Under the pieces are notes generated by a model, which was given only the letters and a program-made list of their open reading frames with translations, had not been told where the DNA came from and made no database searches. A stretch of DNA of 36,789 bases from a virus, in the IMG/VR virus record IMGVR_UViG_3300031884_000074, positions 1 through 36,789 of that record; one strand, written 5' to 3'. The number at the start of each line of letters is the position of its first letter. Within the stretch, counting starts at the first letter, position 1. Shown here in pieces: positions 3,308-18,948 of this stretch. The position numbers were made by a program, and so were the translations under genes.

Positions 3308-4663
3308 TCAAAAACTGTTGTTGTCCCAAGCATTTAAGCGTACAACATTACTTGCGGTACGAGTAGCACCAGTAATAGTTGTAGCACCTGAACCTGTAAA
3401 GCCAACATAAGCACCTGTAGAGCTGATGTCATGCAATACTGCAACGCCTGCTGGGTTACGAACAATCAATGTTCCTTCCAATAGGAATTGATCCAAACTT
3501 GCGTCAGCGTTCGAGAACACTTCGTTGTTTGGTCCTAGGTCACGCAATGAACCCCACTGTAGAACTTCTTCATTCAAGAAGTAGATCTGGTTACCACTAC
3601 CAACTTGATCCATGATCCAAGAATCAAAAATCTCGTATGTGTAGTTGAAGTCGCCTTCGTATGTAGCGATTGTGTCACCACGCTCACTGTTCACACGGTT
3701 GATACTACGGCTTGTAGGCATTGTATCACTTAGGTGAGTTCTTAAACTTGTTGGGCAAACGATTGTGCGGATTTTTGCATTGAATCTTTGCTCAGCAGTT
3801 GTAACCAATTGCTTGTACAAGCTAGGTGCAAACTGTTGTAGTGTACCTGTGTAAGAATAGAATGAACTACCTAGACCTTCACCAGTGTTGCTTAGTGAAC
3901 CACTTGATAGTGAACCACCAATAACCCAAGTGTTTGCAGTGCCTTGTGTGGTAACATCGGTTAACTCAGTGTTGAACACTGTGTAATATGTTGAACCTGC
4001 GGCTGGGTTGAAACTGTGTGTTCCAGCGAAAGCATTCAATGAACCCATTCTACGACCCAATGCGCTAGAGTAAGTTGTTGCACCAATGGTGTAACCAGCA
4101 ACTCCATAAGCACTACCAACTGTGACATTGGCGCTGGTGTTGTTTGGGTTCGCATCGCCTGTGGGATATGTGAACACTGTTGCAGGAATACCAATACCAG
4201 CAGCAATACCAGCTTGTCCTGAATACTTGGTTCCGATTTGGTCAGCACGAACGATTTGTGCTTCCACATCGAACATGAGCTCGATGAGTTGTTTCACTTC
4301 CATGTAGGCCTGTGGGTCGCCGCCCGATTGCTCAACTGCACGAGCTGTGCCAGTTGCACCAACTACTGTAGAGAAAATCTGTGTGTAGTTGCCCAAGTTG
4401 GCACGGCTTTGTTGTTCAACTTGTGCTGAACTAACTGCTGCACCTTCTTGTTGTGCTTGAGTCTGTGGTAAACGATATACATCGTTGGTCCACAATGGTA
4501 GTGTGCTAACTACTTTACGCTTTTTGGCCATACACATGTTCAACACAGGTGTATCGTCTTTAACTCTGTTGCTTACATCTAAATCTAAATCTTTGACAAC
4601 GATATCTGTTTGATATGAAGTGGTACCATTGCCGATAGCTGTTGTGCTATTAAAACCTGCCAT
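3308..4663 (-). CDS. Major capsid protein, SU10/DUF5309 type
   Basis: This 451-aa protein forms the icosahedral shell. The N-terminal region (DIVVKDLDLDVSNRVKDDTP, KRKVVSTLPLWTNDVYR), the segment NYTQIFSTVVGATGTARAVE near residue 90 and the helix YMEVKQLIELMFDVEAQIVR are the pattern of the SU10-type capsid family (DUF5309, HK97 fold). Residues about 165-260 form a Gly/Ser/Thr-rich insertion that could be surface exposed. The ATG at 4663 follows AAGGAG at good spacing. Upstream is an acidic scaffold gene and downstream a strong terminator, both as expected for a highly expressed capsid gene. Confidence 0.88.
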   Translation of the reverse strand: MAGFNSTTAIGNGTTSYQTDIVVKDLDLDVSNRVKDDTPVLNMCMAKKRKVVSTLPLWTNDVYRLPQTQAQQEGAAVSSAQVEQQSRANLGNYTQIFSTVVGATGTARAVEQSGGDPQAYMEVKQLIELMFDVEAQIVRADQIGTKYSGQAGIAAGIGIPATVFTYPTGDANPNNTSANVTVGSAYGVAGYTIGATTYSSALGRRMGSLNAFAGTHSFNPAAGSTYYTVFNTELTDVTTQGTANTWVIGGSLSSGSLSNTGEGLGSSFYSYTGTLQQFAPSLYKQLVTTAEQRFNAKIRTIVCPTSLRTHLSDTMPTSRSINRVNSERGDTIATYEGDFNYTYEIFDSWIMDQVGSGNQIYFLNEEVLQWGSLRDLGPNNEVFSNADASLDQFLLEGTLIVRNPAGVAVLHDISSTGAYVGFTGSGATTITGATRTASNVVRLNAWDNNSF

Positions 4664-6308: not shown

Positions 6309-8588
6309 TTAGAAAGCACGGGCTTTGTGTTCGCCCACTAGGGAGAAGCCATCCAACTGCATCTTGGCACTGGTGCCTTGTGTGTTGGCTGCAATTTCTT
6401 GAGCACGAACCTGATTAAGTTGTGCCACGCTTTGTTTCTGTGCAATGTCGGCCGCATCCTTGGGATTGGGTTGTTGGTTGGCACTTTGCGCTTTGGCCTG
6501 TTTGACCATTTCCATGACTTCGTCTTCGGTCAGCAAATAAACATCGGCTTCTTTCACGCCCAACACATACAACATGTCTTCGTAGGTGCGACGCATTTTC
6601 TTGAACGAGCCCGGAGTCAAGGCACCCATTTGCACGCCTTGTGCAACTTCTTGTGCAAGTCCTTGTTGTGCTTGCTTGATGATTTGCAAGCGTTGTAGGC
6701 TGTTCTCTTCACTCTTCATGCCCAAGGCAAGATCAATGTGTATGGTCTTGCGTTCGTTAAAGTTCATGTCATCAAATGCTTTGTAGTCCAAGAATTCGGC
6801 CTTGCCTTCAGGATGGAACTGTTGTGCCAGCTTCTTGACGCCGTAGTCGTCGCCGTGTGCAATCAGGGTACGCCAGATCAACCAGATGGCATCTTTTAAA
6901 CCTTCGGAACAGTTCTTGACAGTGTTGTCTTGAATCACTTGATTGGGACTTAGAGCCAGGTTTAATTTGGCACCGCTATTGCCGGGATCCATTACTTCAG
7001 GATTGAACACATCTTGTGGACTAGTCATGCCCACCATGGCCATTTGATCCTGTTGCATTCTGGCTAGAGTGTTGTCTAGGAATGTGGGATTGCCTTGTGG
7101 TATGGGCATGGCGTATACATCGGTTGCGGGATTGAATTTGCTATCTAGTATAAAGATTGATGCATCACCATCTTGTATTTGTTCAAAGTCCACTCTATCG
7201 GGTTTGACACCAATTCTGGGAGTGGCTTGTAACAGTCCGGTTAACAGTTCGGCTCTATAACCCGATGTCATGTACTCTTGCATGGGCACTACTGATTCTG
7301 CAATGGCCATACCGTAAAAGTTTTGTGCCAAGGGCTTGGGAACCATGTTGGCCACCGGAATGAATTCCACTTCACGAGCCGATATCACATATTGCCCGCT
7401 GTATATAAGTTCCACAAGTTCCAACTCTCCATCATTATCAATATCATAACGATTCCACACAGTAAGAACAGTGACCTGTCTTGCTTCAGGCTCCTGCGCG
7501 GAATAGCCTTGTGCAGGAAGTCCATTAATAGGAACACTATCCCGAGCATGGATAGCAAGGTTATTAAGTAGTGATCCAGCTTGATATGAACCAACATTGG
7601 AATATTCGGCATAGACTTTGAACTCCTCTAGATCAATGTCAGGATACAGTTCATAGGCTTCCTGTATGCTCATGGGCTTGTAGAATCCACAGAAGGGTTG
7701 TTCTTCTATCGAGATCACAGTGGGATCGCACATCCAATAGTGTTGTGCAATTGGGCGGAACCGGATGTTGAGGTTGTAGCCGGTCAGTTTGTACTTGGCT
7801 TCATACACTGTGTTGCGGTTGATGCTGTCACCAATGGCATCTTCGGTGTCACGCAGTTGCACATTTTCTACATCGGGTGTGGCTTCTAGATCGCCACCGG
7901 CAATGGCTTGGCTGCTTTCAAGAAGTTTGTTGATATTTTCTTCGTGTTGTTGGGCAGTTAGGCCGGCTGCATGTTGTTGTGTTTCTTTTAGAACCTGCGC
8001 CAGGTCCACATGTTTTTTTCTTTTGCTGGTTCTAAGTGCACTAAGTCCAGCTTCGGAGGCCTGTTGTTCAAATGCTTTTAACTGCTCTTGTGTGCCCTGT
8101 GTGGTAATGTAGCGCACAAAACTTTCGCGCATGGGAGCAACCAACATCTCACCATTCTTGTGCAAACAAGCATCCATGACCCAGTGTTGTAGGATAAAGT
8201 GTGGATCGTTGTTTTGGTTGATCAGCTTGTGTACCATGTTGGTGGCTTGGCGTGCTGCCTCTTCATCATCTTCGTTGTCGGCCACAAACTCAAAATTGAT
8301 CTCGCCATTTTGTGCCATGCCCTTGGTGATTACACTGGTGGCATAATCCACAACTGGTTTTACCACCGGATGTATGTAGTCTAGATCATTTACCGGATCT
8401 GTAGAGTCTGTAACTGCCAAATTAAGATAATGGTAATCGCTGAGTCTATTGATGTTGTTTTTGGTGGCCAACAATCTCAAGTTGGCTGCGCATTTTTGAT
8501 CCAGCAAGCTCTTCATTTTGACAAAACGACCCATTATACCGGTGTGTCCATTAAGATTGCTTACTACTACATTGCGAAGATCTAACAT
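6309..8588 (-). CDS. Portal protein, P22 type
   Basis: This 759-aa protein forms the dodecameric DNA channel at one capsid vertex. Its length is close to P22 gp1 (725 aa). Features of the family include the N-terminal helical segment with DYIHPVVKPVVDYATSVITK, a stem region near residue 380 (RYDIDNDGELELVELIYSG), the motif QNFYGMAIAESVVPMQEYMT and a C-terminal Gln/Ala-rich helical barrel (LQIIKQAQQGLAQEVAQGV, then AKAQSANQQP). It is immediately downstream of the large terminase, the standard arrangement. The ATG at 8588 has GGAA nine bases upstream. Confidence 0.88.
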   Translation of the reverse strand: MLDLRNVVVSNLNGHTGIMGRFVKMKSLLDQKCAANLRLLATKNNINRLSDYHYLNLAVTDSTDPVNDLDYIHPVVKPVVDYATSVITKGMAQNGEINFEFVADNEDDEEAARQATNMVHKLINQNNDPHFILQHWVMDACLHKNGEMLVAPMRESFVRYITTQGTQEQLKAFEQQASEAGLSALRTSKRKKHVDLAQVLKETQQHAAGLTAQQHEENINKLLESSQAIAGGDLEATPDVENVQLRDTEDAIGDSINRNTVYEAKYKLTGYNLNIRFRPIAQHYWMCDPTVISIEEQPFCGFYKPMSIQEAYELYPDIDLEEFKVYAEYSNVGSYQAGSLLNNLAIHARDSVPINGLPAQGYSAQEPEARQVTVLTVWNRYDIDNDGELELVELIYSGQYVISAREVEFIPVANMVPKPLAQNFYGMAIAESVVPMQEYMTSGYRAELLTGLLQATPRIGVKPDRVDFEQIQDGDASIFILDSKFNPATDVYAMPIPQGNPTFLDNTLARMQQDQMAMVGMTSPQDVFNPEVMDPGNSGAKLNLALSPNQVIQDNTVKNCSEGLKDAIWLIWRTLIAHGDDYGVKKLAQQFHPEGKAEFLDYKAFDDMNFNERKTIHIDLALGMKSEENSLQRLQIIKQAQQGLAQEVAQGVQMGALTPGSFKKMRRTYEDMLYVLGVKEADVYLLTEDEVMEMVKQAKAQSANQQPNPKDAADIAQKQSVAQLNQVRAQEIAANTQGTSAKMQLDGFSLVGEHKARAF

Positions 8589-8633: not shown

Positions 8634-10268
8634 TCAGGCATCTGCGCTCCAACTGCGCTTCCAGACTGGACGATCCGCTTGATTGTTGCGTTGTGCTTGC
8701 ATGACTCGCATGTTGTGTTTGGCTGCTGCAAATCTTGCTTGTGGACTGCGATCATCCCAGGGTTCGGCTAGATCATTTAGACATCCTAACAGGGCATAGC
8801 GTGCTGAGTCTATGCAGTCGTCAGGATCTGAGAATCTGCCCTTTTCATCCACATAGTAATTTTGTGCTTCACGCAAAAATTCCACACAGTTTTCATTTAC
8901 ATGCAGTGTGCCCAGTTCCAGCATTTGACGCATGACATTGATACCAAAACTTTTATGGTTGGTTCTGTGCCCTTGATCATCTGGTGGGTTCATGATGGCT
9001 TCGGGATGCACATTTAATTCGTACTGTTCAAACATTTGACGCAGGCTCAAACTGCTCATGGTGTATCGGCCCACTGTGCCGGCATCAGCCGGTAACACTA
9101 TGGGCGTGCCAAACACTTCAGGTCTCATGAGGTGATTGATCCAGTTTATGGGATTGGCTTCTTCGGTGCCTTTCACAACTATCTGATGATGCAACCAAGC
9201 TTCACGCTCGGTGGGATGCCAATACATTAACGAGATAACTGTTTTGTCGTTTACCAAGCCCAGGTCAAGTGCAATGATCCTGTGTAGGCCATGTGTGTTG
9301 CGGAAGTCGTAGTCGCCGGTCCGGTATGTGGGCCAGTTTCTAATTTGGAACACTGCACCTTTGCCCATGACCGGAACACCATTGCGTCTAGCATCACGCT
9401 CGTGTGGCAAGTAATCTCTTTCCAGTTGCAAGCGTGTGGCCATCAACAAGAATGGTTCATGCCAGGGATCGTATTCGGGCACATCATCCCAGCTTACCCT
9501 AATGTGTTCGTAGCCTTCCTCATGATTCCAAAATTTACTTACTAGGCCATTAAGACCTTTTAACGGTGTAAAACTGCAAAGCACTTGTCCCTGTGTGGTG
9601 GCAGTTCTAGTTACAATTTCGCTGAAGAAGTCATCGGGTGGTTGTTCATCAAATATGGCCAGGTTCAGTTTAAAACCCTGCATCTGACGAACCTCTTGTG
9701 TGTAGTTGGCAAACAGCAAATAACTGTTGCTTCCGCTTGTATGTCGAATTTCCACACCAATGCAGTTGGCGCCGTCGCTACGCATGGTGTCGAATTGAAT
9801 TAGATCTCGAGGTATGGCTCCGGTGCCTAAACTGTCGCGTATCTTGACATCGTTAGTGCCCAGCAATTCATTCTGCAACACCAGGGCCACTTGGCTCCAG
9901 CCTTCACCGGCTACCATGGCAGTTACCGGCTTTGTGAACCGTTTGGCTGTAGCAGGCCACCAGTCAGGATATCGACCAGTTAAATGATATGCTGTTTCAT
10001 AACAGGTACTAACAGTTTTACCGATACGATTTGCAGCCAAGATGCCTCTACGGTCAGCGTGTCCGGTTTCAAAGAAGCCGATCTGATGTGCAAATGGTCT
10101 AAAGTAACGCAGTTGGTTGTACTGCATGTCCTCGGCCACAGATATCACATATTCTTCAAGTCGCAATCGTGTAAGCGTGGGCAATTGATGTAAATTACCC
10201 ACCGGCAACTTTTCTCGCTCGCAGACCCATCTCAAGGCACGACGCATGAGCAAGGCTCGATCTATCAT
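8634..10268 (-). CDS. terL: Terminase large subunit
   Basis: This 544-aa packaging motor has an N-terminal ATPase and a C-terminal RNase H-like nuclease. Visible motifs are a Walker A-like AANRIGKT at 78-85, Walker B LAIFDEQ at 203-209 and a coupling motif FTPLKG at 233-238. The nuclease aspartates are in ALDLG (D335), PADAG (D395) and the DDCIDSARYAL segment (D484 and D487). All expected acidic residues are present. The ATG at 10268 overlaps the stop of the 86-aa gene (ATGA), indicating translational coupling. It acts with the portal, encoded next. The packaging mode cannot be told from sequence alone, though the circular assembly fits headful packaging. Confidence 0.93.
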   Translation of the reverse strand: MIDRALLMRRALRWVCEREKLPVGNLHQLPTLTRLRLEEYVISVAEDMQYNQLRYFRPFAHQIGFFETGHADRRGILAANRIGKTVSTCYETAYHLTGRYPDWWPATAKRFTKPVTAMVAGEGWSQVALVLQNELLGTNDVKIRDSLGTGAIPRDLIQFDTMRSDGANCIGVEIRHTSGSNSYLLFANYTQEVRQMQGFKLNLAIFDEQPPDDFFSEIVTRTATTQGQVLCSFTPLKGLNGLVSKFWNHEEGYEHIRVSWDDVPEYDPWHEPFLLMATRLQLERDYLPHERDARRNGVPVMGKGAVFQIRNWPTYRTGDYDFRNTHGLHRIIALDLGLVNDKTVISLMYWHPTEREAWLHHQIVVKGTEEANPINWINHLMRPEVFGTPIVLPADAGTVGRYTMSSLSLRQMFEQYELNVHPEAIMNPPDDQGHRTNHKSFGINVMRQMLELGTLHVNENCVEFLREAQNYYVDEKGRFSDPDDCIDSARYALLGCLNDLAEPWDDRSPQARFAAAKHNMRVMQAQRNNQADRPVWKRSWSADA

Positions 10269-13696: not shown

Positions 13697-14050
13697 TTAT
13701 TTTATTCCTGCTATGGTGGCTATTGCTTCTGCAAAGGCCGCTTTCTTTTGTTCTACTTCATCTGCAGTACTGGAGACTTCCACCTGTGCCAGTGTGGCAC
13801 TGACCTTGTTCAAGATCAAGTGGTGATATTTTTGTGCCAGGTGTACATCGGTGGCTCGAGCCTGTGCAAAGTCCGCGGCCAGCAGTTCCACATAGGGTCT
13901 ACCACTGGCAGTGTCTATTGCAGTCAACAAACTGTTGATAGTGACTTTGTCTACCGACCCCTTTGGCCTACCGGCTCCAGGTCGTGCGCCACCACGGCTT
14001 GACACTTTAGGTTTGCCAGTGCGTGCATTAATTTTGCTTTTCGTTTCCAT
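13697..14050 (-). CDS. terS: Putative terminase small subunit
   Basis: This 117-aa protein has an N-terminal basic segment with RGGARPGAGRPKGSVDKVTI at about residues 19-38, a sequence signature common at the start of phage small terminase subunits. Helices follow (INSLLTAIDTASGRPYVELL, HLAQKYHHLILNKVSATLAQ) and an acidic-to-Ala-rich end. It would recognise DNA for packaging and deliver it to TerL. It sits at the head of the packaging block, just after a terminator. The ATG at 14050 has no clear Shine-Dalgarno. The GARPGAGRPKG motif is also found in non-terminase phage proteins, so this is probable, not certain. Confidence 0.6.
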   Translation of the reverse strand: METKSKINARTGKPKVSSRGGARPGAGRPKGSVDKVTINSLLTAIDTASGRPYVELLAADFAQARATDVHLAQKYHHLILNKVSATLAQVEVSSTADEVEQKKAAFAEAIATIAGIK

Positions 14051-14625: not shown

Positions 14626-14654
14626 ATTATAGCATCTTGATCATTTGTTGTCAA
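14626..14654 (-). promoter_or_regulatory. Perfect sigma70 promoter (TTGACA-N17-TATAAT)
   Basis: The minus strand has TTGACA at 14654-14649, a 17-base spacer and TATAAT at 14631-14626. Transcription should begin near 14619 and reach the 63-aa gene after about 27 leader bases. An imperfect inverted repeat (TGTTTAACA, 14608-14616) overlaps the predicted start and could be an operator. The promoter overlaps the end of the 73-aa gene. Confidence 0.88.
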
Positions 14655-14862: not shown

Positions 14863-15073
14863 CTCGTGCAGTCAATCTAGGATAGCCCCGGGCTCCACCT
14901 GAACACACATGTGCATTGTAAAATACCGCAGTCATTTCACGACCACATCCGGGACAACTATATCTTGGCAATGGCTCGCCAGGTTCTCGTGGTGTTTCAG
15001 GTACATAAAATCTATAATACTGTCGGTGTTGGGCCCAGCGGCGTTGTCGATATCGATATTCAGTTACTAGCAT
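14801..15073 (-). CDS. Small zinc-finger-like protein
   Basis: This 90-aa protein contains YSCPGCGREM and then HVCSGG. C40, C43, H55 and C57 could bind one zinc ion. The N-terminus is Arg/Tyr-rich (YRYRQRRWAQHRQYYRFYVP) and the C-terminus basic and polar, so nucleic acid binding is plausible. I take the ATG at 15073, four bases after the upstream stop; an earlier in-frame TTG at 15097 would overlap that gene. The C-terminal 20 residues overlap the 73-aa gene, so the end could be disordered or the overlap real coupling. Confidence 0.6.
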   Translation of the reverse strand: MLVTEYRYRQRRWAQHRQYYRFYVPETPREPGEPLPRYSCPGCGREMTAVFYNAHVCSGGARGYPRLTARDGRGRHSRKTDLEQEQRPDT

Positions 15074-15077
15074 AGTG

Positions 15078-15485
15078 CTAGTATTTAGGTTCGGCAAACA
15101 CAGCTCTAAAGTTATTGGTTTCGGGTTCGTGCTCGATCATGTCAATGCATTCGGCCGGGAACTCCGCCAGCAATCGATTCCAGCGGCCCAGAATACCACT
15201 TGCGATGTCTTTGCCACTCAGCAATTGATCACGCATGTCCATCAAGATATCAGCTGCTGAGTAATTGGCCTTACCACCAGTTCTTGGGAAGTTTTTCAGT
15301 TCCGCAGACAGCAAGTCAGTTTGATTGGTTGCAATTGCGCCATCTATGATGTCAGCTATCACTGCTTCCACATGTGCTTGCACTCGTCGATATTCGGCTG
15401 GGGTTTGTCTGTAATAGGTAGTTGCGAATTTCGCTCCCGGTCTTGGTTCCATTTCTCGTGTTGATCGGTACTTAAACTTTGCCAT
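15078..15485 (-). CDS. 135-aa ORFan under a consensus promoter
   Basis: This 135-aa protein is unrecognised. It has a basic N-terminus (MAKFKYRSTREMEPRPGAKF), a helical centre (VQAHVEAVIADIIDGAIATN, ILMDMRDQLLSGKDIA) and the C-terminal segment ILGRWNRLLAEFPAECIDMI. The ATG at 15485 has AGGAG nine bases upstream and lies about 14 bases after the predicted transcription start of the promoter at 15506-15534. It may be an early regulatory or replication-recruiting protein, by position only. Confidence 0.65.
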   Translation of the reverse strand: MAKFKYRSTREMEPRPGAKFATTYYRQTPAEYRRVQAHVEAVIADIIDGAIATNQTDLLSAELKNFPRTGGKANYSAADILMDMRDQLLSGKDIASGILGRWNRLLAEFPAECIDMIEHEPETNNFRAVFAEPKY

Positions 15486-15505: not shown

Positions 15506-15534
15506 ATTATATTGTATTTATATTTATGTGTCAA
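15506..15534 (-). promoter_or_regulatory. Second perfect sigma70 promoter
   Basis: On the minus strand TTGACA (15534-15529), a 17-base AT-rich spacer and TATAAT (15511-15506) match the consensus exactly. The predicted start near 15499 gives a leader of about 14 bases before the 135-aa gene. A TATAAATA octamer lies within the spacer. Confidence 0.88.
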
Positions 15535-15556
15535 TTTCATATGTGTCCAATTCAAG

Positions 15557-15573
15557 AGATCTCTACGAGATCT
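15557..15573. other. Hairpin 1: perfect 7-bp stem
   Basis: AGATCTC and GAGATCT flank a three-base loop. It is the hairpin nearest the promoter at 15506-15534, 23 bases upstream of its -35 box. Confidence 0.6.
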
Positions 15574-15577
15574 GTCT

Positions 15578-15619
15578 AAATAGAAATCCCTGCTCGTTTC
15601 GCTTCGCGGATTTCTATTT
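15578..15619. other. Hairpin 2: perfect 12-bp stem
   Basis: AAATAGAAATCC and GGATTTCTATTT enclose an 18-base loop containing CGTTTCGCTTCGC. A similar TGCTTCGC recurs just downstream at 15629-15636. Confidence 0.7.
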
Positions 15620-15660
15620 GACCTCTACTGCTTCGCTAATAAAAACAAAGAGAAGGAATA

Positions 15661-15707
15661 ATCAGACGCCAAAAATCAAGTGCGTCAGCACTTGTTTGGC
15701 GTCTGAT
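15661..15707. other. Hairpin 3: 20-bp stem with a three-base bulge
   Basis: ATCAGACGCCAAA pairs with TTTGGCGTCTGAT, and inside it CAAGTGC pairs with GCACTTG around a four-base loop; AAT is bulged on one side. It is the most stable structure in the window. On the minus strand a T-rich but interrupted tract follows, so it could also terminate the upstream 138-aa gene. Confidence 0.75.
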
Positions 15708-15726
15708 AGGTCGACTGTGTCGACCT
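15708..15726. other. Hairpin 4: perfect 8-bp stem abutting hairpin 3
   Basis: AGGTCGAC and GTCGACCT flank a three-base loop. It begins on the base after hairpin 3, so the two could stack coaxially. Confidence 0.65.
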
Positions 15727-15985
15727 CTTAGTTGTTGTCGTAATTGGAATCAGATCTTGTCCAGCAGAAGACGCAAGTCTAACCCTCCCCCCAGTTGATT
15801 TTTAGAACCTTAAGAAAGGAAGTTCAACCCGAGATACTAGGTATCGGACGCACAAAACTTGAGCCAAAGATATACCCTTCCCAGAGGTCTGCATTGGCTG
15901 CTTGTTGTGTTTTTTACAGACTTTGCGCTTAGTCTTGTCCGCGCTTTGGTCTCTGCCACGCCTAGAGGGGATTTAGGTCGCTGGG

Positions 15986-16402
15986 TTATTTCTTTCTACG
16001 AGGTTCAGGCATATTTTTTAATTTGGAGTTGTTCTCTATTTGTGCCATAATGATATTGTTGTATCTACAGAATAAGACTATTTGTCGAGTGAGTTTGCTT
16101 TTGGGATTGTTACCTAATACCCAATTAATATAATCGGGATCGGTTCTAAGAATTTTTCTAATTGGTTCGCCATGATACTTGCCGCCACCGAATCGCCAAT
16201 TTCTTTGTTCTCGAGCCGTTTCCCATTCTTGGGTTTTTAATTTTTGGAAAGCAGGGAAACTCATGCGATACTGTGCTCCGCTTTCCAAAAACTCCTGATG
16301 CCAGGATTGCTTTTCAATCAATGATGGTTCACGGAAGCGATTTTGATATTTCGCTTCCGCTAAATCTATTGATGTCTGATTGTAAGTGTTTCCGATACTC
16401 AT
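15986..16402 (-). CDS. Protein with an ExoX-like C-terminal motif
   Basis: This 138-aa protein contains FGGGKYHGEPIRKILRTDPD and then YINWVLGNNPKS around residues 70-102. This resembles the short GKYKG-type motif found at the end of exonuclease X-like proteins and in small stand-alone phage proteins. No nuclease active site is visible. The N-terminal half is polar and helical (FREPSLIEKQSWHQEFLESG). The ATG at 16402 has a weak AGAG upstream. The gene may take part in DNA metabolism; this rests on a short motif. Confidence 0.6.
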   Translation of the reverse strand: MSIGNTYNQTSIDLAEAKYQNRFREPSLIEKQSWHQEFLESGAQYRMSFPAFQKLKTQEWETAREQRNWRFGGGKYHGEPIRKILRTDPDYINWVLGNNPKSKLTRQIVLFCRYNNIIMAQIENNSKLKNMPEPRRKK

Positions 16403-16650
16403 AGCATTCTCTTAATTGTTTTAGGATTTCCGATTCGCACCCAACTCGGAAAACATTGGTCCTGGCCCATTAAGAGATCTACATTGCGTAGAAGAATTTG
16501 TTGCCTGTGCTTTGTATTTAGTATTATATACAAAAAACCCTGTTTTTCCTAGCGATTTGGATAATTATTAAGGGCAGTTGTTAACCAGACCTCGGAGGAT
16601 GCAGTGGAGCAATTTTTCTGGTTTCTACCACAAGGCCAAATCCGGACTGC
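16403..16650. other. Non-coding gap with hairpins and a possible promoter
   Basis: This 248-base gap holds a 7-bp leader hairpin (TTTCCGA 16427-16433 with TCGGAAA 16446-16452) and a TATAAT on the minus strand at 16528-16523. It also holds a nested pairing just after the 80-aa gene: GGGCAGT (16572-16578) with ACTGCCT (16646-16652), and AACCAGA (16583-16589) with TCTGGTT (16617-16623). The last resembles a tRNA in length but lacks T-arm and anticodon features. Confidence 0.45.
16523..16551 (-). promoter_or_regulatory. Possible weak promoter for the 138-aa gene
   Basis: A perfect TATAAT lies on the minus strand at 16528-16523, but at 17 bases upstream the -35 position reads TAGGAA, a 3/6 match. 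The predicted leader of about 115 bases includes the hairpin at 16427-16452. Confidence 0.3.
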
Positions 16651-18381: not shown

Positions 18382-18948
18382 TTATTTCACCCATTTATAA
18401 CCGTGTCGGGCACCATAGCGTAGCGCACCGGCTCGCTTGAGATCGATACCAAGTCGTGCAGCTATTTCGCGTGGCTTCACAGTTCTAAACCAGCGCAGTT
18501 CCGCTTCGGTATATCTATAGGTTCTATTTTGCCGAATGGGATTGCCAGCAGCATCTACTCTGCGACCGCCGGTATTGCCGGCACCGGTTCTCAAAGTTCC
18601 TCGTTGGCGCATGAACTCGTTGCGTACATGTGCATCACCCAGAACCAAATGATCGGGATTGACACAACTGTCGTTGTCACAACTGTGCATTACAAACTCG
18701 CGACTCGAGATAGCACGACCCAATTTCATACGCATGGCCACTCGATGCACCACAGTCATGATTTTCTTGTTGTCGGCTTTGCGTATGGCCGAACACATTC
18801 TATAACCCTGTGCGTGTCTACCACCAGTATGATTAATGCATCCCGAAGCTTGCGGTTCAAGATATTGATTCCAATTCACTTCATTGATCAGGATGTCACC
18901 GAGATCTCTCATGTTTTCTCTTAGATTGATTTTTAATTTGCCAGCCAT
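18382..18948 (-). CDS. HNH homing endonuclease
   Basis: This 188-aa protein has a clear HNH core: VVHRVAM (H68), VMHSCDNDSCVNPDHLVLGD (H88, C90, C95, N97, P98, H100) and N110 after it. The Cys and His residues suggest a zinc-supported fold of the HNH_3 type. The C-terminus (RYTEAELRWFRTVKPREIAA followed by LGIDLKRAGALRYGARHGYK) looks like a helix-turn-helix for DNA recognition. Such enzymes nick or cut DNA and spread their own gene. The ATG at 18948 has AAGGAA upstream. It borders the divergent promoter region. Confidence 0.88.
   Translation of the reverse strand: MAGKLKINLRENMRDLGDILINEVNWNQYLEPQASGCINHTGGRHAQGYRMCSAIRKADNKKIMTVVHRVAMRMKLGRAISSREFVMHSCDNDSCVNPDHLVLGDAHVRNEFMRQRGTLRTGAGNTGGRRVDAAGNPIRQNRTYRYTEAELRWFRTVKPREIAARLGIDLKRAGALRYGARHGYKWVK

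Follow-up and report, generated by a model that had tools for sequence, protein, structure and literature searches.

The window (the whole stretch of DNA analysed here, a virus record of 36,789 bases) is probably a fragment, and its genome is incomplete. The terminase and portal of the nearest named record, MW202484.1, are 52% and 43% identical, respectively, to those of the window. The GGARPGAGRPKGS protein encoded at 13697–14050 (minus strand) is conserved, being present in 29 loci, has no match in Pfam, and is probably the small terminase subunit, judging from its position and motif. The other phage genes and the four hairpins are located as follows.

3308–4663, minus strand: major head protein
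6309–8588, minus strand: portal
8634–10268, minus strand: terminase
15557–15573, minus strand: hairpin H1, AGATCTC/GAGATCT, 7 bp with a 3-nt loop
15578–15619, minus strand: hairpin H2, 12 bp, perfect
15661–15707, minus strand: hairpin H3, outer and inner stems of 13 bp + 7 bp with one 3-nt bulge on the 3' side
15708–15726, minus strand: hairpin H4, 8 bp, perfect, with a 3-nt loop, abutting H3

All four stems of the preliminary description (7, 12, 20 with a bulge, and 8 bp, the last two hairpins abutting) were found at their places. Both neighbouring genes (15986–16402 and 15078–15485) lie on the minus strand, and the hairpins are therefore naturally read from H4 through H3 and H2 to H1. The judgement that the stems are too regular and long for chance was borne out; the 170 nt contain 32 bp in perfect stems of at least 7 bp, as compared with 15–24 bp in the richest 170-nt stretch found in each of 20 dinucleotide-shuffled versions of the whole window, and stems of at least 12 bp number three in the window (two of them in the hairpin cluster) versus 0.05 expected per shuffled window. 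The 446-nt region at 15540–15985 has a folding z-score of −5.9 for the minus strand and −4.4 for the plus strand. A terminator scan flagged two hairpins on the plus strand, H4 and H2, and on the minus strand only the inner H3 stem, whose T-run falls within the outer H3 stem. Since the minus-strand stems have no proper U-tract, they do not form a cluster of intrinsic terminators, in keeping with the earlier view that they are not simple terminators. The extent given for the cluster (15557–15726) holds for the stems but is too narrow, missing the informative part at 15782–15985, and after the discovery of this upstream core the hairpins were no longer regarded as a stand-alone cluster.

The non-coding stretch directly upstream of the hairpins has a 75% identical counterpart in relatives found by their terminase (L040/L096/L097), and after it these relatives have hairpins of their own, spelled differently. 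With four DNA patterns, 16 loci in uncultured phage contigs were obtained and used, comprising 15 distinct sequences: the window (=L094), L095, L096 (=L097), L098 (=L100), L101, L102, L106, L107, L108, L109 (=L110 within the core), L111, L112, L113, L114, and L115. A fifth pattern gave no additional member. Pattern matches in L099, L103, L104, and L105 were rejected as chance, having one short stretch in common in an unrelated context. The covariance model R1, built on the first seven members, retrieves all the others with E-values of about 1e-22 or lower, and scores L103–L105 at 23.7 bits as compared with about 80–220 bits for members. It detects exactly one copy of the core per record in 18 records, and none in 22 other records with related terminases (mostly fragments). 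In all seven core-bearing records that include a terminase, this protein is 72–100% identical to that of the window. The core and its elements are listed below.

15782–15985, minus strand: conserved RNA core, 204 nt, with 15 distinct members, model R1, and covariation
15958–15981, minus strand: P1 hairpin, GCG-CCUA/UAGG-CGU with a 9-nt loop; double changes C-G to A-U and U-A to C-G
15918–15952, minus strand: P3 (AGAC/GUCU) enclosing P3b (GCGC/GCGC); A-U to U-A in P3
15862–15899, minus strand: P4 hairpin, AGCCAA/UUGGCU with inner CCU..AGG; five double-changed pairs
15820–15860, minus strand: P5, AAGUU/AACUU with inner variable hairpin GAUAC/GUAUC; covariation
15783–15787, minus strand: GAGGG, proposed pseudoknot partner of the P1 loop CCCUC (15965–15969); compatible changes

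Among the relatives, CCUA/UAGG of P1 is replaced by CACA/UGUG, and GAGAC/GUCU of P3 by GAGUC/GACU. The stems of P3b vary in its short form (GCGC, GCAG/CUGC, GUUC/GAAC, GUGC/GCAC, and others), and L095, L096, L098, L107, L111, and L114 have a longer form instead. In P4, GCUCGUG/CACGAGC changes to GCCAA/UUGGC or AAUUAUGC/GCAUAAU, and P5 consists across members of AAGU/ACUU, CGU/ACG, and a variable hairpin. The last six positions of the P1 loop are pyrimidines in nearly all rows and are pairable with the 3' G-run, from which we infer a pseudoknot with compatible changes and no two-sided change; in L102 it would require a shifted register or a bulge. The core also contains a conserved UGGGGG stretch, and its 3' end UGGGGGGAGGG may close the core from end to end via CCCA/UGGG, with changes that are compatible rather than compensatory.

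In a sequence-only MAFFT alignment of seven members, 95.7% of the cells are paired and 10 pairs are changed on both sides, with a covariation score of 0.316 versus 0.145 ± 0.022 when shuffled and at most 0.075 with the partners slid. The corresponding values for the 16-row alignment are 98.2%, 12 pairs, and 0.355 versus 0.138 ± 0.015 (shuffled) and at most 0.055 (slid); the seven-row result is the cleaner one, because the 16-row alignment was fitted to a model, and in both the kinship of the members makes shuffles and binomials overstate independence. Among the varying core pairs (the invariant G-U pair being left out), 10 cells are G-U and 0 are A-C, and therefore the core pairing acts in the minus-strand RNA and not in double-stranded DNA; H1–H4 alone, with too few such cells, do not separate RNA from DNA. 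Covariation in relatives had been proposed as a check on the hairpin region, with a lack of conserved pairing counting against it, and the pairing was found to be conserved. On the evidence of the aligned sequences, the element is shown to be a structured RNA under selection for pairing.

The searches for a known family gave no convincing match to this core. At the gathering threshold, neither the window nor 13 relatives matched Rfam 15, which includes the GOLLD, ROOL, OLE, and raiA families as well as group I/II introns, tmRNA, RNase P, and 6S RNA; permissive Rfam scans of the window and relatives gave sub-threshold chance matches only. Distant blastn searches of cultured phages and plasmids yielded nothing or chance matches, two exact patterns had no match in 84,980 prokaryote species genomes, and a tRNA/tmRNA search found neither in the window and no tRNA in the 16 loci. 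The literature searched on phage structured RNAs (GOLLD/ROOL and human-microbiome surveys) gave no description of the element. With regard to coding potential, no frame is open throughout the members: 11 of the 15 interrupt the shared one, and the open frames across the core in a few members, L101 and L106 among them, occur by chance. The resemblance of the P3 region to the R/S pairing raised the possibility of a group I intron, which was rejected for lack of an Rfam model match and of a split gene, the ORFs neighbouring the core looking complete and belonging to unrelated families.

Within 220–310 nt 3' of the core, the relatives have hairpins at matching places, whose order and spacing are similar to those of the window and whose letters are mostly unrelated. 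Of 14 members, 12 have a stem of 6–10 bp with a 3–5-nt loop at the place of H1 (background, 6.6% among random stretches of equal size), and 7 have a stem of at least 6 bp at the place of H4 (6.1%); the places of H2 and H3 are occupied in 12 and 10 of the 14 members (30% and 25%), and nominal P values for all these places are too small owing to the shared ancestry of the members. Stems lettered differently at the same places must have been maintained or renewed independently. In many members, H3 consists of an outer stem xxCAA..TTGxx, an inner stem, and a bulge on the 3' side. The H4–H3 sequences of L098 and L109 are nearly identical and accompany cores of different subtype, a pattern that suggests recombination within the element.

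The core and the hairpins appear to belong to one transcription unit, with the following components and surroundings.

15557–16517, minus strand: proposed unit of leader, small ORF, core, and four-hairpin tail (5' start at ~16515), both ends predicted
16523–16551, minus strand: candidate unit promoter TAGGAA-17-TATAAT, score 10.6
16409–16476, minus strand: leader stem CTCTTAAT/ATTAAGAG enclosing TTCCGA..TCGGAA, just before the small ORF
15986–16402, minus strand: small ORF of 138 aa with a basic C-terminus and ExoX-like_C (PF20600, E = 7e-8), its stop codon abutting the core
15506–15534, minus strand: perfect sigma-70 promoter TTGACA-17-TATAAT of the next gene, 3' of H1

The score of the candidate unit promoter is only moderate, at about the 90th percentile of random 200-nt stretches. 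In L106, L109, and L113, TTGCT[AT]-17-TATACT is located about 137 nt before the core, and in several relatives intrinsic terminators of the previous gene lie upstream of the unit. In a comparison of two or three sequences, the leader stem has a counterpart at the same place in L096 (TTTATTACTG/CAGTAATAAA with TTCCGT..ACGGAA). The promoter that the preliminary description placed beside the hairpins does exist as a perfect sigma-70 promoter, but it runs on the minus strand (15534–15506) away from the hairpins and serves the gene at 15078–15485. Promoters after H1 are also found in relatives, with the same perfect consensus in L095 and TTGCAA/TTGATA-17-TATAMT in several others. A second perfect TTGACA-17-TATAAT promoter, with TG ahead of its −10 box, is located at 14654–14626 (minus strand), ~900 bases downstream of the first. 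At the end of the gene 15078–15485, an 8-bp perfect hairpin (TACTAGCA/TGCTAGTA, 15065–15083) overlaps a CTAAATAC box. CTAAATA-like boxes are also present at 16514 (the start of the RNA unit), 19000, and 3265; their count in the window, 4 versus 2.2 expected, is not significant, and they are possibly a phage promoter element.

A small ORF ends 2–15 nt before the core, or abuts it with its stop codon, in seven members (the window, L096, L098, L107, L112, L114, and L115), and is also present in L095, where the contig end truncates its 5' side. Six of the seven ORFs are mutually related, most of them having ExoX-like_C (PF20600), and the ORF of L115 is unrelated. Among the loci examined, those related to the ORF of the window (in L095, L096, L098, L107, L112, and L114) occur only immediately 5' of the RNA. 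The small ORF is optional, because the other members have no such ORF. Genes of HNH-type endonucleases are situated within ~2–3 kb of the RNA in many members (18382–18948 in the window; L096, L101, L102, L107, L108, and L115), the assignment being based on PHROGs for the window gene only and judged by eye for the other loci. The genes downstream of the element belong to several unrelated families and differ between contigs, which argues against the core being the leader of one gene. In G027, the element is oriented opposite to the terminase genes, arguing against a role tied to transcription of the packaging genes.

We consider it likely that the minus strand encodes, behind a promoter-like sequence of its own, a structured non-coding RNA belonging to a new phage-encoded family, with the hairpins as its 3' tail. 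The family is built of a core of ~200–260 nt with covarying P1, P3, P3b, P4, and P5, then an array of stem-loops, and then a varying gene that often has a promoter-like sequence too. A discrete minus-strand RNA would be produced from the predicted promoter, and the varied neighbour genes and the orientation in G027 are the only indications that it may act in trans, either free-standing or as a ribonucleoprotein. The hairpin tail could be a module for stability or a spacer (nuclease protection, spacing, or multivalent binding), and the ExoX-like_C protein, where present, may be a partner of the RNA. Possible tasks would include counter-defence, take-over of a host machine, and an RNA-only assembly like GOLLD/ROOL.

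A structured non-coding RNA was among the suggestions of the preliminary description and is supported by the covariation, the G-U bias of the core, and the promoter-bounded unit; the origin, packaging site, and insulator, to which we added a cis-acting leader, are less likely. It is improbable that the element is a transcription-primed origin, at which a transcript like ColE1 RNA II, with a G-rich stretch and hairpins, would form a persistent hybrid priming downstream DNA synthesis. RNA II is a structured transcript with a G-run and an AT-rich stretch next to it, and the window RNA resembles it in being structured, with a G-run and an AT-rich stretch after it (29–30% GC beside H1). The predicted long, structured, co-directional transcript, the conserved UGGGGG, the single copy per contig, and the fact that no replication initiator was recognised among the window proteins scanned (from an incomplete fragment) would all suit such an origin. 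However, it would be expected to be universal, yet the 22 records with related terminases, mostly fragments, have no match, and in this absence from many relatives the element differs from RNA II. Moreover, positive evidence for an origin at the window element is lacking; the site has no iterons or DnaA boxes, and the cumulative GC-skew minimum lies near 20–21 kb, not at 15.7 kb. A riboswitch-like leader acting in cis on the downstream gene is quite improbable. A same-strand gene does lie directly downstream in the members whose downstream stretch is covered, but the unrelated families of these genes speak against it, as do the consensus promoters that many of them possess 3' of H1, which place the leader outside their main transcript.

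It is very improbable that the hairpins alone are relevant, at the DNA level, as a packaging site or a cruciform origin. Perfect and hypervariable hairpins, together with a terS-like gene and the terminase a few kilobases away, could be read in this sense, but the 10:0 ratio of G-U over A-C in the core is unexpected for double-stranded DNA, and the distance to the terminase is variable. The earlier suggestion of a packaging site found no positive evidence, the element of G027 being opposite to the terminase genes. Least credible is a transcription insulator or a set of terminators between two units, corresponding to the barrier isolating early transcription envisaged earlier, for which positive evidence is also lacking. 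The stems flagged by the terminator scan would agree with it, and so would a location that has a gene on one side and a very strong promoter on the other; against it, proper U-tracts are missing after the minus-strand stems, and the conserved core would be left unexplained.

Structured non-coding stretches other than the family of R1 were also observed. In L073 (2640–3220, minus strand), a stretch of ~580 nt has its own upstream terminator and several stems, shows no similarity to R1 in its core, ends in AGATCTC-3-GAGATCT, i.e., the H1 stem of the window, and lies directly before a relative of the gene found downstream in L102/L095/L096. In L024 (2160–2560, plus strand), and likewise in L023, another stretch ends in perfect 10-bp and 8-bp hairpins and is followed by one small gene and then by a gene related to that same downstream gene. 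The cores of L073 and L023/L024 gave no match to R1, Rfam, or cultured phages. We tentatively raise the idea, which is rather doubtful at present, of a slot in these phage genomes where large structured RNAs can be exchanged; three or more cores, unrelated or diverged beyond recognition, lie in a comparable position ahead of related genes and have similar tails of short perfect hairpins. If true, such a slot would fit RNA modules swapped under host-defence pressure, with or without the ExoX-like_C protein.

Among known systems, N4-type hairpin promoters have hairpins with 3-nt loops near promoters, as is also seen in the window. The promoters downstream of the window element, however, are of the sigma-70 consensus, and the window fragment showed no giant virion RNA polymerase of the N4 type. 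Closer in kind to the non-coding RNA proposed here are GOLLD and ROOL. GOLLD, a phage-encoded structured RNA of large size and complexity, has a conserved and a variable part and an unknown function (PMC12286853). The window RNA is likewise phage-encoded and structured with a conserved and a variable part; it differs in that the conserved part is on the 5' side, a small ORF often precedes the core, and the region and its relatives have neither an Rfam match nor a nearby tRNA. ROOL is a phage-encoded RNA of several hundred nucleotides with several helices and pseudoknots, and has no known protein partner or function (PMC12286853). The window RNA shares the phage origin, the length, the several helices, and, as proposed, a pseudoknot, whereas it has another conserved sequence, lacks an Rfam match, and is not near tRNAs. 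As a kind, and not a family, GOLLD/ROOL-like RNAs are phage-encoded, several hundred nucleotides long, and extensively structured with covariation, as found here; they are often near tRNA genes, of which there is none in the window or the 16 loci. The formation of homo-oligomeric cages is a further feature of that kind. Judged on these features, the window RNA is comparable in kind, not in sequence, to GOLLD and ROOL and is a member of neither. Large structured phage RNAs are few, and GOLLD and ROOL turned out to have unexpected RNA-only architectures without an established function. The long 'empty' intergenic region of an uncultured phage would conceal a gene, and the role of such RNAs during infection could be studied in a tractable system: another independent family whose core is compact and covarying, whose tail is hypervariable yet structurally constrained, and which has a likely pseudoknot and a candidate partner protein.
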